Source: Arthrobacter beigongshangensis (lineage in GTDB: Bacteria > Bacillota > Bacilli > Bacillales_A > Planococcaceae). Taken from it: 64,000 bases of DNA. Where the stretch lies: contig NZ_JADHDX010000013.1 in the NCBI RefSeq assembly GCF_016820585.1, positions 1 through 64,000 on the forward strand, read 5' to 3'. The notes under the pieces were generated by a model. That model was not told the origin of the DNA. It saw nothing but the letters and a program-made list of their open reading frames with translations, and ran no database searches. Made by a program: the position numbers and the translations under genes. Positions 36,362 to 43,779 of this stretch are shown here, piece after piece; positions within the stretch are counted from its first letter, which is position 1, and every line of letters starts with the position of its first letter.

Positions 36362-36877
36362 GTGAATAAAGAACAATTGTTAGAAGAAATAATGGACCAT
36401 TATACAGACTTGTTATTTCGGATTGCTTATTACTATACGAAAGATATACAAGTGTCTGAAGATATCGTACAAGATACTTTCGTGAAATTTTATCATTCAG
36501 CTCGTTATGAAGAACAGGGAAATATAAAGGCTTACTTATCAAAAATGACCGTTAATCGTTGTAAAGATTATTTGAAAAGTTGGTCTTATCGTAAAATAAT
36601 CGTTCAAAAAAAGTTGTTCCATACTAAACACTATACGCATAAAGATGTCCTTATCCATACTGATGAAACAAATATGCTAGATGAAGCAATCCTATCTCTA
36701 CCTTTAAAGCAACGGGAGGCGATTGTTTATTTTTATCTTGAAAATATGTCGATTAAAGAGATTGCGAAACTTCTATCTATTTCTGAAAATACGGTGAAGT
36801 CAAGGTTAAGACGTGGCAAAGAGCTATTAAAAGCTAGTTTGCAGCATATCGAATGGGAGGTGTTGTTAAATGACTAA
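36362..36877 (+). CDS. ECF-type RNA polymerase sigma factor
   Basis: 171 residues, the two-domain ECF layout. Region 2 includes LFRIAYYYTKDIQVSEDIVQ and a DTFVKFYHSA segment that binds the -10. Region 4 has the helix-turn-helix MSIKEIAKLLSISENTVKSR then LRRGKELLK. The GTG start has AAAGGGGGG upstream. It overlaps the next gene by 8 nt, the usual sigma/anti-sigma coupling. Specificity is unknown; the upstream AAC-N17-CGT motif suggests autoregulation. Confidence 0.88.
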   Translation: MNKEQLLEEIMDHYTDLLFRIAYYYTKDIQVSEDIVQDTFVKFYHSARYEEQGNIKAYLSKMTVNRCKDYLKSWSYRKIIVQKKLFHTKHYTHKDVLIHTDETNMLDEAILSLPLKQREAIVYFYLENMSIKEIAKLLSISENTVKSRLRRGKELLKASLQHIEWEVLLND

Positions 36878-38282
36878 TTACCGTATGAAACGGCTACAAA
36901 ATATAGCGGAAAATAAACAACGAATTATATCGAATACTCGGCAAAAAATAGCCGAGCCGAAGAATAAAACAATCAATTGGCTGTATTTATCAACATCAAT
37001 GGCAGTCATTGTTTTATGTGTTTTTTTCGCAAGGCTATCATGGGATACAATTGGAAATCCAATTGACATCAGCCAATCAAACATGTTTGTTGAACAATCT
37101 GAGGTGGAGCTGATTGTAATTGATACTGTGGAAACAGGGGAAACGGTTACGATTGAAAATAAGGAAACGATCGTATTAGTAGCTGATTGGTTAAACGAAG
37201 TATTTTCTAAGCCCAACCACAATCTAGAGAATGAACAAGCAATTGCATATCAAATTTATATAAAAAATACGGGCTATTATCCAGCAGGAGCGATTTCAAT
37301 TACGAGTGAAAAGTTGATTGTTGGAGAAAACTATTACGAAATCTCGGCTCAACAATATGAAACGATTTCGAGCCTAATATTCGAAGTAAAAGAAAAAGAA
37401 GATGACATTATTTTTGATGTTAATTCATTTGGAACAGTGAATGAAAAGCTATTGAAAGAGTTAGATGACGTGATTTCAGGAAAGATGAAAACAGAAGTAT
37501 TTGGAAATGGTATACCGAATGCTATTCATACAGTACGTATTAATAAAGAAGGAATAGCAATTGTGGATTTGCGATTGGTTTTTAGAACTACTCTTGATAA
37601 TTTCTGGTCTAGTCATGTCAAAGGTGAGGTGGGAAGGGCTTTTAATTCGATTCTATTTAATGAGCCTCAAGTAAGTACGGTTTATTATTTATTAGAGGGT
37701 AATTTTAGTGAGTGGAGTAGGTGGGGCGAATTTGTAGAAGAACCTTACACTCGAGAAATGTGGGAAGAAGTATCTTACGGGCTACAATCACTTTTTGAAA
37801 TAAAAGTAGAAACACATTATGATATAGGTAATACTGACTCCCATTCAGGCTGGAAAACATCTCCTGATCATTTACAACAAGCAACCATTGATGGAAAAGG
37901 AGAAAATGCAATTGAAGAAGGAGAAGCGTTGCTGGTTATAGAAAACCTTGAAACGAGCGAAGCAACGATTTATAAGCTCAAAGATAATAGCGTAGCTCAA
38001 AATACACCTAAATATGTTGAGTGGATAGATGAAAATCGACTATTTGTAATTATCGGCTATGCGTATGGTACGGTAACGAAAGGTGGTCAACTTTATGAGA
38101 TGAACATAAAGGACAATACCATTATCCCAGTATTCGAAGATTTGACAGAAAAAGAAGAGATTATGACCATTAAAGCCAATGACAACGGTACATTCACCTA
38201 TCAAAAACATGTATATCATGATGATAATTATAGTGAAGGTCATATAGAAGAAGGTATACTTCCTTTTCCATCCGCTAAGTAA
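36870..38282 (+). CDS. Membrane-anchored anti-sigma/sensor candidate with GerMN- and DUF4652-like parts
   Basis: 470 residues. The N-terminal 35 residues are cytosolic and basic. A single helix follows (LYLSTSMAVIVLCVFFARL), then a large extracytoplasmic part. Around residues 215-285 the sequence (HTVRINKEGIAIVDLRLVF, RAFNSILF) resembles a GerMN-type domain. Residues about 330-440 (GWKTSPDHLQQATIDGKGEN; LFVIIGYAYGTVTKGGQLYE) resemble DUF4652. It overlaps the sigma gene, so an anti-sigma role is likely, but no zinc-type anti-sigma motif is visible in the short N-terminus. Domain names come from pattern memory and need an HMM search. Confidence 0.65.
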   Translation: MTNYRMKRLQNIAENKQRIISNTRQKIAEPKNKTINWLYLSTSMAVIVLCVFFARLSWDTIGNPIDISQSNMFVEQSEVELIVIDTVETGETVTIENKETIVLVADWLNEVFSKPNHNLENEQAIAYQIYIKNTGYYPAGAISITSEKLIVGENYYEISAQQYETISSLIFEVKEKEDDIIFDVNSFGTVNEKLLKELDDVISGKMKTEVFGNGIPNAIHTVRINKEGIAIVDLRLVFRTTLDNFWSSHVKGEVGRAFNSILFNEPQVSTVYYLLEGNFSEWSRWGEFVEEPYTREMWEEVSYGLQSLFEIKVETHYDIGNTDSHSGWKTSPDHLQQATIDGKGENAIEEGEALLVIENLETSEATIYKLKDNSVAQNTPKYVEWIDENRLFVIIGYAYGTVTKGGQLYEMNIKDNTIIPVFEDLTEKEEIMTIKANDNGTFTYQKHVYHDDNYSEGHIEEGILPFPSAK

Positions 38283-41232: not shown

Positions 41233-41280
41233 AAAAGGATAGAGCAGGCAGAAAATTTCTGCTTGTTTCTATCCTTTTTT
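41233..41280 (+). terminator. Terminator before the second ECF operon
   Basis: Outer arms AAAAGGATAGA (41233-41243) and TCTATCCTTTT (41268-41278) enclose an inner stem around GCAGAAA/TTTCTGC, followed by Ts. Confidence 0.85.
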
Positions 41281-41291
41281 GCGACTTTAAT

Positions 41292-41320
41292 AAAAACCTT
41301 CTATGAGGGCACGTCGTCTA
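41292..41320 (+). promoter_or_regulatory. Candidate ECF-sigma autoregulatory promoter
   Basis: AAAACCTT (AAC at 41295-41297) is followed 17 nt later by CGTCTA (CGT at 41315-41317), after the terminator and about 25 bp before the sigma start. Same AAC-N17-CGT geometry as upstream of the sigma gene at 36362. Confidence 0.55.
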
Positions 41321-41343
41321 TTGATTGGGAGGAGGGATATAGG

Positions 41344-41877
41344 TTGGAGGAAGTAATTGTTAAAGCGTTTGAAACAGAAGATAGGAAAGTCCTCATGGAT
41401 GAGATTATGAATCGCTATGGACAGGATATTTTAAGGCTTGTTTATTCTTACGTGAATAATAAAGAATTGGCGGAGGATTTGACGCAGGATATTTTTGTGA
41501 AATGCTATAAATCCCTTCATACATACAAAGGAAAATCATCGCTTCGTACATGGTTGTGGCGTATTGCGATTAATCACTCCAAGGACTTTCTGAAAAGTTG
41601 GTATAACAAACATGTCGTTATTTCGGAAGAACAACCAATCACCCATCGAACAACAAAAGAAATGGTGGAACAGGTTGTCATTCAAAAAGAAGAGGATGAT
41701 CAATTAATTTCTGCGCTTTTGACGCTACCGATTAAATACCGTGAAGTCATCTATCTCTTTTACTATGAGGAATTGTTGATTAAGGAAATTGCAGTTATTA
41801 CCGGGGCTAGTGTGAATACGGTTAAAACACGGCTTAGACGTGCGAAAGAGTTGTTGAAAGAACGATTGGAGGCATGA
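41344..41877 (+). CDS. ECF-type RNA polymerase sigma factor
   Basis: 177 residues. Region 2 shows DILRLVYSYVNNKELAEDLT and QDIFVKCYKS; RLVW-like RTWLWRIAINHSKDFLKSW closes it. Region 4 is PIKYREVIYLFYYEELLIKE followed by the helix-turn-helix ITGASVNTVKTRLRRAKELL. TTG at 41344 is chosen because GGAGGG is 7 nt upstream; a longer in-frame stretch would start inside the preceding terminator. The PadR and SEDS-like genes follow within a few bases, so all three form one operon. No classical anti-sigma gene is adjacent. Confidence 0.87.
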   Translation: MEEVIVKAFETEDRKVLMDEIMNRYGQDILRLVYSYVNNKELAEDLTQDIFVKCYKSLHTYKGKSSLRTWLWRIAINHSKDFLKSWYNKHVVISEEQPITHRTTKEMVEQVVIQKEEDDQLISALLTLPIKYREVIYLFYYEELLIKEIAVITGASVNTVKTRLRRAKELLKERLEA

Positions 41878-41880
41878 GGG

Positions 41881-42276
41881 ATGGAGAATCGCTTGAAAGG
41901 ACTAAAAAAATCAATGGATGATACTGCATTTAGCCAACTTCAGTTTACAGAACAGCATCGTAAGGAAATTCGGGCAAAAATTAGTGAAACGGATGACAGT
42001 GTTTTATTGGCTGTCATGCAGTTGCTTGTCGAAGAAAAAACGGGCTATGAATTGGTGCAGTTTTTAGGAGGACGGGGCATTCGAAAATTTGAAGACAACG
42101 AAGGTAACTTGTATACCTTGTTGCATCAGTTAGAACGCGACGGTTGCTTACAATCTAGCTGGAACGAGGCGACGAAATTTTATAGGTTAAACAATAAAGG
42201 CATAAAGCGATTAGGCAAAATGGAAAAGCAATCTAGTAGTAGACGATTCACTTTGAAAGACATCGTGGAGGGGTGA
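41881..42276 (+). CDS. PadR-family transcriptional regulator
   Basis: 131 residues. An N-terminal extension of about 40 residues precedes the winged helix typical of PadR: SVLLAVMQLLVEEKTGYELV, then NEGNLYTLLHQLERDGCLQS and FYRLNNKGIKRLGKME. The ATG lies 3 nt after the sigma stop with GGAGGCATGAGGG as ribosome site. PadR proteins often pair with a HAAS-domain membrane protein, and the next gene encodes one. Confidence 0.85.
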   Translation: MENRLKGLKKSMDDTAFSQLQFTEQHRKEIRAKISETDDSVLLAVMQLLVEEKTGYELVQFLGGRGIRKFEDNEGNLYTLLHQLERDGCLQSSWNEATKFYRLNNKGIKRLGKMEKQSSSRRFTLKDIVEG

Positions 42277-42283
42277 GTGACAA

Positions 42284-43576
42284 ATGCACAAGAGTAGTCA
42301 ATCTTTTTTAGGGGAAGTTAGGGAACAGATTCAATCAAAAGAAGCGAAGGAGTTTGTGGCGGCGGAGTTGGATCATCATATAAAAGAAGCAAAGAGTAAG
42401 TGGATGGAGAAAGGATTAGATGAAACAGTATCTGAGGAAAAAGCTGTCGTGCAGATGGGTAGTCCTGTAACGCTGGGACAGCAGTTGAATAAGCTTCATC
42501 GCCCAAAGGTGGATTGGCTGATGGTGATGTTGTTGGTTACGACGATGGGTTTAGGATTTTTACCGATTTTGTTTATTGAAGTTGAATACCATTACATGGA
42601 TGCAGGCTCTTTTTCTGTGAAGAAAGCTGTGTATTCATTGTTAGGCGGGGCATTAGCTTTCGGAATAATGTTTATAAACTATCGAAAGTTAGAAAGATTT
42701 GGCTGGTTATTTTATGGTGTTGGAATACTCATTCTTCTGCTGTTGCACTATTCATCCCATATGATAAATGGCGTATCTGTTCTTGTAATCGGGACATACA
42801 AAATAGATAGTTTAGCAACTATGCCATTTTTTCTTTTAGCGTGGGCTTCCTTTTTTAATCATAAAAAAATAAAGATTTGGCATTTACTTTTATTATTCAT
42901 AGTCTCTTTTGGGTTATTCTCGAACACTGCCAATCTTCCAGCAATGTATATCTATATCGCTATGGTATTTGGGCTATTTTGCTGTAGCCGGTTTAGCCGA
43001 AAAGTAAAGTGGTGGATTACTGGCGGGATAGTAGGCTCGTTATTTTTGTTAGGTTTAATGGCTTGGGCATCTATTAAAATGTATCAGATAGAGCGTTTGC
43101 TAGCGTTTATTAGCCCAGAACAATATGCCAGTGGAGCCGGCTATATGAATTTGCTCCTCCAAGAACATATATCAAAGGCGGGTTGGTTTGGCAACGCACT
43201 GAGTAGTGGGATGATACCCGATGTTCATACTGATTTTGTTTTTGCGGGCTTCACATATTATTTTGGCTGGCTAGCTGCCTTCGCCCTTTTCACGGTTCTT
43301 ACCCTTTTTATCGTGAGAATTATGATGATTGCGCGTACCATTCATGAGCCCTTTGGCAAGTTGTTGTTAATGGGCGCAGTTGCACTGTATACGGTCCAGC
43401 TAGTTAGCAATATTGCAATGACGTTAGGATTGATCCCGATTACTTCGATTTCTTTACCGTTCATTAGTTATGGTTTAATGCCGATTTTGTTGAATGCTTT
43501 TATAATGGGCATTGTGTTGAGTGTTTATCGGCGGAAGGATTTGACGTCAATGAAATCGGCGCAGCCGCAGCAATAG
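42284..43576 (+). CDS. HAAS-SEDS membrane protein (FtsW/RodA-like)
   Basis: 430 residues. The first 75 residues (SKEAKEFVAAELDHHIKEAK, MGSPVTLGQQLNKLHRPK) form a HAAS-like cytosolic domain, known as a PadR-associated signalling module. About ten membrane helices follow, with SEDS features: the periplasmic signature PDVHTDFVFAGFTYYFGWLA (compare PExHTDFIF in FtsW/RodA) and a C-terminal LPFISYGLMPILLNAFIMG. SEDS proteins polymerise glycan strands of peptidoglycan. The loop after the second helix pair differs from canonical RodA, so catalytic activity is uncertain. Third gene of the sigma-PadR operon. Confidence 0.8.
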   Translation: MHKSSQSFLGEVREQIQSKEAKEFVAAELDHHIKEAKSKWMEKGLDETVSEEKAVVQMGSPVTLGQQLNKLHRPKVDWLMVMLLVTTMGLGFLPILFIEVEYHYMDAGSFSVKKAVYSLLGGALAFGIMFINYRKLERFGWLFYGVGILILLLLHYSSHMINGVSVLVIGTYKIDSLATMPFFLLAWASFFNHKKIKIWHLLLLFIVSFGLFSNTANLPAMYIYIAMVFGLFCCSRFSRKVKWWITGGIVGSLFLLGLMAWASIKMYQIERLLAFISPEQYASGAGYMNLLLQEHISKAGWFGNALSSGMIPDVHTDFVFAGFTYYFGWLAAFALFTVLTLFIVRIMMIARTIHEPFGKLLLMGAVALYTVQLVSNIAMTLGLIPITSISLPFISYGLMPILLNAFIMGIVLSVYRRKDLTSMKSAQPQQ

Positions 43577-43581
43577 GTAGG

Positions 43582-43613
43582 AAAACCCGAAGAGTAGATG
43601 CTTCGGGTTTTTT
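43582..43613 (+). terminator. Terminator of the sigma-PadR-SEDS operon
   Basis: AAAACCCGAAG (43582-43592) and CTTCGGGTTTTTT (43601-43613) form a strong stem with a T-tail. Confidence 0.9.
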
Positions 43614-43653
43614 GCCTTTTATTTAGATAGAGAAAATGTTTGTTTCTGGAGTG

Positions 43654-43779
43654 GGTAGTCGAGTTTTCCGAAAAGGTAGTTCAGTTTTGCAAAAAGGTAG
43701 CTCAGTTCGTCCTTAGGGTAGTCCAGTTTGTCTCTAAGGTAGCTCAGTTTATGAAATTGGTAGGCGAGACTGACTTTAA
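43654..43779 (+). repeat. Six-unit 21-bp tandem repeat at the 3' end of proI
   Basis: Units begin with GGTAG at 43654, 43675, 43696, 43717, 43738 and 43759, each exactly 21 bp. The second part of each unit varies (for example TCAGTTTTGCAAAAA or CTCAGTTCGTCCTTAG). The array ends at the proI stop codon. Because 21 is a multiple of three it stays open in several frames and would encode heptads such as KLSYLRD on the minus strand, but no ribosome site supports translation. Confidence 0.85.

Follow-up and report, generated by a model that had tools for sequence, protein, structure and literature searches.

A sigma factor, a PadR repressor with an anti-sigma-like segment and a HAAS-SEDS protein with a degraded active site: a candidate membrane-stress switch in one operon

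This study of the window, namely the whole stretch of 64,000 nucleotides that was analysed, indicates that an operon on its + strand encodes an ECF sigma factor, a PadR-family protein and a membrane protein of the FtsW/RodA (SEDS) type, and that together they appear to form a switch joining a DNA repressor to a sigma-factor brake, with a polymerase lacking most of its active site as the membrane sensor. What was observed comprises the gene order, the conserved promoter, a PadR N-terminus homologous to that of putative membrane anti-sigma factors, the loss of some SEDS residues with retention of others, and the RodA fold of the predicted model; the binding steps of the switch are proposed from sequence comparison. 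The features of the region are as follows.

41242-41268, + strand: terminator-like stem-loop upstream, separating the operon from the preceding gene (consensus match only)
41294-41318, + strand: ECF-type promoter, AAAC-N16-TCGTC then TAT, presumably read by the operon's own sigma factor
41344-41877, + strand: ECF sigma factor of the sigma-C type, 177 aa from TTG 41344 (NF006930)
41881-42276, + strand: PadR-family repressor of the LstR type, 131 aa (PF03551, NF006931)
41881-42000, + strand: N-terminal anti-sigma-like segment of PadR, residues 1-40 (profile searches)
42016-42213, + strand: winged-helix domain of PadR, residues 46-111 (PF03551 match)
42284-43576, + strand: HAAS-SEDS membrane protein, 430 aa (family matches, predicted model)
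42284-42508, + strand: HAAS domain, residues 1-75, presumed PadR contact (match at residues 13-69; GxP motif)
42512-43534, + strand: SEDS domain with degraded active site, residues 77-417 (PF01098, residue comparison)
43232-43234, + strand: codon of D317, equivalent of the catalytic Asp of RodA (alignment), kept here and replaced in 49 of 119 relatives
43580-43613, + strand: terminator-like stem-loop downstream (consensus match)

The three genes are tightly packed on one strand between 41344 and 43576, with 3 bases between the sigma stop (41877) and the PadR start (41881) and 7 bases between PadR and SEDS, and all three products exceed the cut-offs of their family models: NF006930 for sigma (270 bits, cut-off 198), PF03551 and NF006931 for PadR (47.2 and 155 bits, cut-offs 27 and 112) and PF01098 for the third protein (123 bits, cut-off 26.4). 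The single operon proposed by the sequence-only reading is thus well founded. The sigma factor most likely starts at TTG 41344 and not at 41263, because this codon follows GGGAGGAGGG and stands at the place of the GTG or ATG starts of relatives; position 41292, given there as the start of the finding, precedes the promoter-like site by two bases. Terminator-like stems flank the unit on both sides, such sites numbering 4 in the 64-kb stretch against 1.9 expected. No other ORF of the unit lies between the two terminators that could be an anti-sigma gene. The earlier statement that an ordinary anti-sigma gene is absent was right as written, but it overlooked the anti-sigma-like segment at PadR residues 1-40.

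The operon is of the kind known in Listeria as sigC-lstR-lmo0421 and is itself not new, having been described in 2005 (cited in PMC6686043) and in 2019; its description as little studied therefore holds only in part. In Listeria, sigma-C is needed for expression of the operon and LstR represses it; deletion of lstR raises lmo0423 139-fold and lmo0421 145-fold, and reporter expression is completely sigma-C-dependent (PMC6624303). PMC11237479 defined the HAAS domain, with its GxP motif and PadR pairing, proposed a HAAS-PadR dyad, reported that HAAS genes always stand beside a PadR gene and named a HAAS-FtsW/RodA fusion, CAC98500.1; since that work cites Hauf et al., we infer that this fusion is Lmo0421. 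PMC6686043 excluded Lmo0421 for weak homology and absence from lineages I and III. Because the Listeria operon and the HAAS-FtsW/RodA fusion are already in print, the novelty of the operon cannot be claimed and the designation "glycan polymerase" becomes unlikely.

For comparison, we assembled 119 HAAS-SEDS relatives, mostly close (80 of 125 confirmed loci plus the best 30 loci of each of two further searches, deduplicated by identical last 360 residues), and 32 SEDS controls (29 loci best by PF01098 score plus three others), which lean to canonical proteins because they were chosen in that way. PadR and sigma accompany 101 of the relatives and PadR alone 16, an operon counting as "sigma-less" when roughly 1.5 kb of upstream sequence gave no sigma match at E 1e-3; the remaining two have neither, one (L095) within 4 kb upstream and the other (L137) at a contig edge.

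The sigma-linked PadRs begin with a segment of about 40 residues (consensus MExRLKxLKKxMxxTTFxxLxFTExHRxxIxxxI), present in 101/101 of them versus 0/16 PadRs of HAAS-SEDS operons without sigma, the former count holding partly by construction because the profile was built from 33 such PadR N-termini of the window's PadR family. Residues F22 and F17 are kept in 100 and 99 of the 101, and the PadRs of sigma-less operons begin near the winged helix. A six-frame search of 81 genomes with this segment gave 27 matches below E 1e-3, and an ECF sigma gene adjoins each of the 23 examined. Among the open frames of 30 loci examined, 26 match below 1e-3, all beside a sigma gene on the same strand, and comprise 9 PadRs without a transmembrane helix (TM) and 17 single-TM proteins; the other 4 loci have weak matches and no such open frame. 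Each of the 17 has exactly one TM, placed directly after the segment as in the layout of anti-sigma factors, and from this layout and position they are putative anti-sigma factors. In a Pfam scan only three of the 17 passed a cut-off, L196 with DUF3221 and L207 and L211 with an LCP domain, and a MucB/RseB match in L203 fell just short. The PadR model NF006931 itself matches 7 of 8 membrane proteins scanned, at its N-terminal end (positions 1 to 39-43 in six and 1-67 in one).

The relationship was also recovered from the other side. A reverse profile made only from the 17 membrane N-termini, rows that had themselves been found by the PadR-segment profile, matched 100/101 sigma-linked PadRs and 0/16 others, with the window PadR at 7.6e-14. 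Starting from sigma only (NF006930, 61 genomes) and taking the longest frame behind sigma as the partner, we found a coupled partner frame in 30/30 loci examined, comprising 4 PadR and 26 single-TM proteins, and the segment scored below 1e-2 in 20 of these 30 partners, some of the tested rows also being in the profile. These data suggest that the repressor probably carries the "missing" anti-sigma factor as a fused part, and the simplest reading would be that PadR now stands where an anti-sigma factor had its membrane and sensor portion, the sigma-binding end having been kept. On a quick tree, the sigma label changes only twice, one of these changes being L095, which lacks sigma inside the sigma-linked group; the pattern suggests a single event, perhaps the arrival of sigma and segment at an older PadR-HAAS-SEDS pair. 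The literature searched contained no account of a PadR bearing an anti-sigma segment, and the term "anti-sigma" occurs 0 times in PMC6624303.

Coevolution between PadR 1-40 and sigma (41 of the top 200 pairs vs 61 expected) and between PadR and HAAS (33 vs 36 expected) lent no support to binding, and only sigma and HAAS lay slightly above expectation (46 of the top 200 vs 36). Distances of the PadR N-terminus tracked those of sigma with r 0.77, versus 0.86 for the winged helix. The fused-chain fold of sigma and PadR was poor (pLDDT 58, pTM 0.33) and did not support binding, and the PadR segment matched no solved structure better than E 0.9.

Upstream of sigma, a pair of AAC and CGT elements at ECF-like spacing occurs in 101/101 sigma-linked loci versus a mean of 6.4 and a maximum of 11 loci in 200 shuffles; as these letters were demanded by the search, what counts as independent evidence is how often the pair was found and which letters flank it. 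Most often the site reads AAAC-N16-TCGTC with TA behind it (T in 99/100 and A in 99/100 aligned regions), and the 25-base form accounts for 91 of the 107 sites listed. This conserved AAAC...CGTC-type promoter at 101/101 sigma genes seems to be a new observation. Within the window the pattern matches once, against a mean of 0.25 in shuffles. A larger regulon was considered and rejected, with 10 matches genome-wide versus 14 for the reversed control; the absence of an excess agrees with a sigma factor whose chief target is its own operon, which is what has been reported for Listeria. Visual inspection, without a count, showed a possible PadR operator in sigma-less operons, a dyad of the form ATACAT-N9-ATGTAT next to a sigma-A-like promoter; no such dyad was noticed in the aligned upstream regions of sigma-linked loci.

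The third protein carries a HAAS domain fused N-terminally to the SEDS part, beside PadR, as the sequence-only reading had proposed. This assignment is weaker than those of the other domains: NCBIfam perm_prefix_1 is passed (32.1, cut-off 30) and the GxP motif G59-S60-P61 is present, but the Pfam HAAS score of 20.5 is below its cut-off of 27. The predicted model places the HAAS helices at residues 5-15, 19-42, 47-58 and 61-71. That model (mean pLDDT 86.8, pTM 0.84) matches RodA structures 6pl6 and 6pl5 with a TM-score of 0.84 normalised by target, that is, the RodA fold. On the quick tree (SH-aLRT support only, 44 of 148 inner branches open), the 119 HAAS-SEDS proteins lie on one side of a branch with support 100 and the 32 canonical SEDS proteins on the other.

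Despite this fold, the polymerase residues are largely lost. The equivalents of W102, Q111, E114, K117 and D159 (E. coli numbers from PMC10449877, mapped by motif), at which changes harm E. coli RodA or B. subtilis SpoVE according to that paper, are kept in 4, 14, 1, 0 and 10 of the 119 relatives vs 32, 32, 32, 31 and 32 of the 32 controls. The position of the catalytic Asp holds D in 70 relatives, N in 40 and another residue in 9, versus D in 32/32 controls, and the quick tree requires at fewest 20 changes between D and not-D. Counted per protein, 0-3 of the six residues are kept in each relative versus 5-6 in each control; the window protein keeps D317 alone, the other five all being replaced. 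The catalytic Asp alignment suggested as a check thus finds the residue retained in the window but variable in the family. The departing membrane loop noticed from sequence alone is real, and is the very loop that bears W, QPSE and K in canonical SEDS proteins. Both EE positions are also lost in nearly all 119.

Other parts of the protein persist: R271, one Arg of PH1, in 115 relatives, P278 in 115, G286 in 113, P385 and P392 in 118, and S395 and G397 in 117, all seven together in 105/119, and the S, Y and G of the SYG motif in 117, 109 and 117. The presumed ligand pocket is not intact, because the second PH1 Arg (R in 28/32 controls vs 3/119 relatives) and the second G of SYGG (32/32 vs 12/119) are lost. 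The pattern of loss and retention fits a protein for which polymerisation is no longer required but which may have kept the ability to bind a lipid-linked ligand; the SEDS part looks like a receptor, and the identity of its presumed ligand is a guess. The residue counts in the 119 relatives and 32 controls led us to reject a plain polymerase as the main reading. Of the two possibilities raised by the sequence-only reading, a sensor derived from a SEDS enzyme is the better, given the loss of five of six residues; a regulated glycan polymerase is not supported, in view of the same losses, of the absence of the Asp in 49/119 and of Listeria, where overproduction of Lmo0421 failed, under the conditions used, to substitute for FtsW1 or the RodA proteins (PMC6624303). 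No description of a SEDS pseudoenzyme was found in the literature searched, and no paper there joined SEDS, RodA and pseudoenzyme.

The system shares features with several described ones. The closest is sigC-lstR-lmo0421 of Listeria monocytogenes (lineage II), which it resembles in gene order, in sigma-C and PadR models above cut-off and in the HAAS-FtsW/RodA fusion, a likeness resting on the NCBIfam models and the literature; control of the operon by sigma-C and LstR is a feature of the Listeria system. It differs in genus and in the anti-sigma-like N-terminus of PadR, which PMC6624303 does not describe. As in the HAAS-PadR dyads, HAAS is N-terminal to a multi-TM protein, PadR adjoins it and FtsW/RodA is among the listed partners; the available sections of PMC11237479 mention neither a PadR anti-sigma segment nor a check of SEDS residues. 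The ECF265 pair sigma-P/RsiP of Bacillus thuringiensis, with its sensor PbpP, is by description similar in combining an ECF sigma and an anti-sigma partner with a wall-synthesis protein as sensor, whereas here the segment-bearing PadR is the partner and a protein of its own, derived from SEDS, supplies the membrane part. About half of ECF265 sigma factors pair with a single-TM anti-sigma factor (PMC8092216), and PadR repressors are listed beside ECF265 (PMC8999054). RodA and FtsW share the predicted fold, one PH1 Arg and the SYG motif with the window protein; unlike them, it has lost five functional residues and the second PH1 Arg, its catalytic Asp is not conserved in the family, and HAAS has been added. 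The pair BC4206-BC4207, induced by an envelope-active peptide, likewise combines PadR with a partner membrane gene, but it has no sigma, and its membrane protein has 4 TM and is not SEDS.

We therefore favour, at evenly balanced confidence, a membrane-stress switch in which a PadR chimera and a HAAS-SEDS receptor are the separated halves of what is usually one membrane anti-sigma factor. The winged helix of PadR would repress the operon promoter, and its N-terminal 40 residues would bind and silence sigma. The HAAS-SEDS protein would be the membrane half, a former peptidoglycan polymerase hardly able to polymerise, which may bind lipid II or undecaprenyl pyrophosphate. A change in the ligand, or a drug acting on it, could cause HAAS to take up or reshape PadR, which would free promoter and sigma together, and the freed sigma would then drive its own operon through the AAAC-N16-TCGTC promoter. 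We infer sigma binding, the HAAS-PadR contact, the ligand and the sign of the response. The more specific proposal, that a single soluble protein acts as DNA repressor and, for the same operon, as anti-sigma factor, with a dead SEDS polymerase sensing lipid II or undecaprenyl pyrophosphate as its partner, is offered more tentatively, as possible rather than probable.

The roles given here to the PadR segment and to the SEDS protein could each be conceived differently. PadR may be a plain DNA repressor whose segment is a relic or touches sigma only so as to bring the repressor to polymerase that carries sigma at the promoter; sigma would then not be sequestered, and HAAS-SEDS would still relieve PadR. 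This accords with the lack of a coevolution signal between PadR 1-40 and sigma and with the Listeria L90A L92A L93A mutant of lstR, altered in the operator-recognition part, which derepresses as fully as the deletion (PMC6624303); a strong anti-sigma role is disfavoured on that account, since with a working segment repression should not be lost completely, provided that the mutant protein is stable. In LltR the altered residues are L49, R51 and L52 (PMC6624303), with numbers about 41 below L90, L92 and L93 of LstR, a hint, on our own matching of the residues, that LstR has the longer N-terminus. Yet a relic would hardly persist in 101/101 PadRs with F22 and F17 so nearly invariant, and the segment occupies most of the region ahead of the single TM in the related membrane proteins, where it therefore likely contacts sigma. 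We consider the plain repressor unlikely, although it is a serious rival.

The SEDS protein could instead be an active glycosyltransferase that uses a modified form of lipid II, or a different lipid-linked sugar, and serves as a drug-resistant back-up controlled by PadR and sigma, an idea raised in the discussion of Hauf et al. (PMC6624303). Retention of the Asp in 70/119 relatives, the window protein included, of one PH1 Arg and of S, Y and G of SYG would suit such an enzyme, but the tree needs at fewest 20 changes between D and not-D, W, Q, E, K, D159 and both EE positions are lost in nearly all, and Lmo0421 showed no observed RodA or FtsW activity; moreover, the unit has no further gene and so no class B PBP partner there. 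This makes an active enzyme distinctly improbable. Least probable of all, and to our mind quite remote, is that HAAS-SEDS is only a target gene for membrane protection and PadR itself binds the inducer. LmrR-type PadRs do bind drugs directly (PMC6624303, introduction), and the PadR and 4-TM pair BC4206/BC4207 of Bacillus cereus gives resistance to enterocin AS-48 (PMC2774856), against which stand the constant company of HAAS and PadR genes reported in PMC11237479 and the greater conservation of HAAS than of the membrane part (mean pairwise identity 0.53 vs 0.43), which suggests a cytosolic contact.

The kind of operon and the HAAS-FtsW/RodA fusion were known, and the anti-sigma-like segment of PadR, the loss of SEDS residues and the conserved promoter are apparently new. 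If true, the membrane-stress switch would explain how an ECF sigma factor without a classical anti-sigma gene is restrained and why this sigma is accompanied by a RodA-like protein and a PadR. The failure of the Listeria homologue to replace any RodA or FtsW would then make sense as well, and the switch would provide a natural sensor for stress in the lipid II cycle.

A genome-wide search with the NCBIfam sigma-C model NF006930, which the operon's own sigma factor passes, returned a single further match at E 1e-35 or better, and this second gene lies in the same window, coupled to a gene for a membrane protein:

36362-36877, second sigma-C-like ECF gene (NF006930 match)
36870-38282, single-TM protein with DUF4652

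The gene arrangement is that of an ordinary sigma/anti-sigma pair, the single-TM protein being the putative anti-sigma factor, and a promoter-like site, GAACTTT...TCGTTTA, was read by eye upstream of the pair.

Directly 3' of the terminator of the HAAS-SEDS operon, a repeat array was observed, with its copies spaced by exactly 21 bases:

43632-43763, five degenerate head-to-tail copies of a GGTAGYYCAGTTT-like unit

Among the relatives, loci L128-L144 pair PadR with HAAS-SEDS, with no sigma match at E 1e-3 within about 1.5 kb upstream; read by eye, their promoter is sigma-A-like and is accompanied by a dyad resembling ATACAT...ATGTAT, which is likely to be the PadR operator. The HAAS-SEDS gene is decaying in some genomes, since in-frame stops interrupt certain relatives (genomes G049, G142, G150, and G202) and several further genomes hold fragments (e.g., G168, G212, G153, and G199).

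In the single-TM partners of sigma-C-like factors at L207 and L211, the outer domain is LytR-CpsA-Psr (LCP), which places another wall-assembly enzyme fold at the sensor position.
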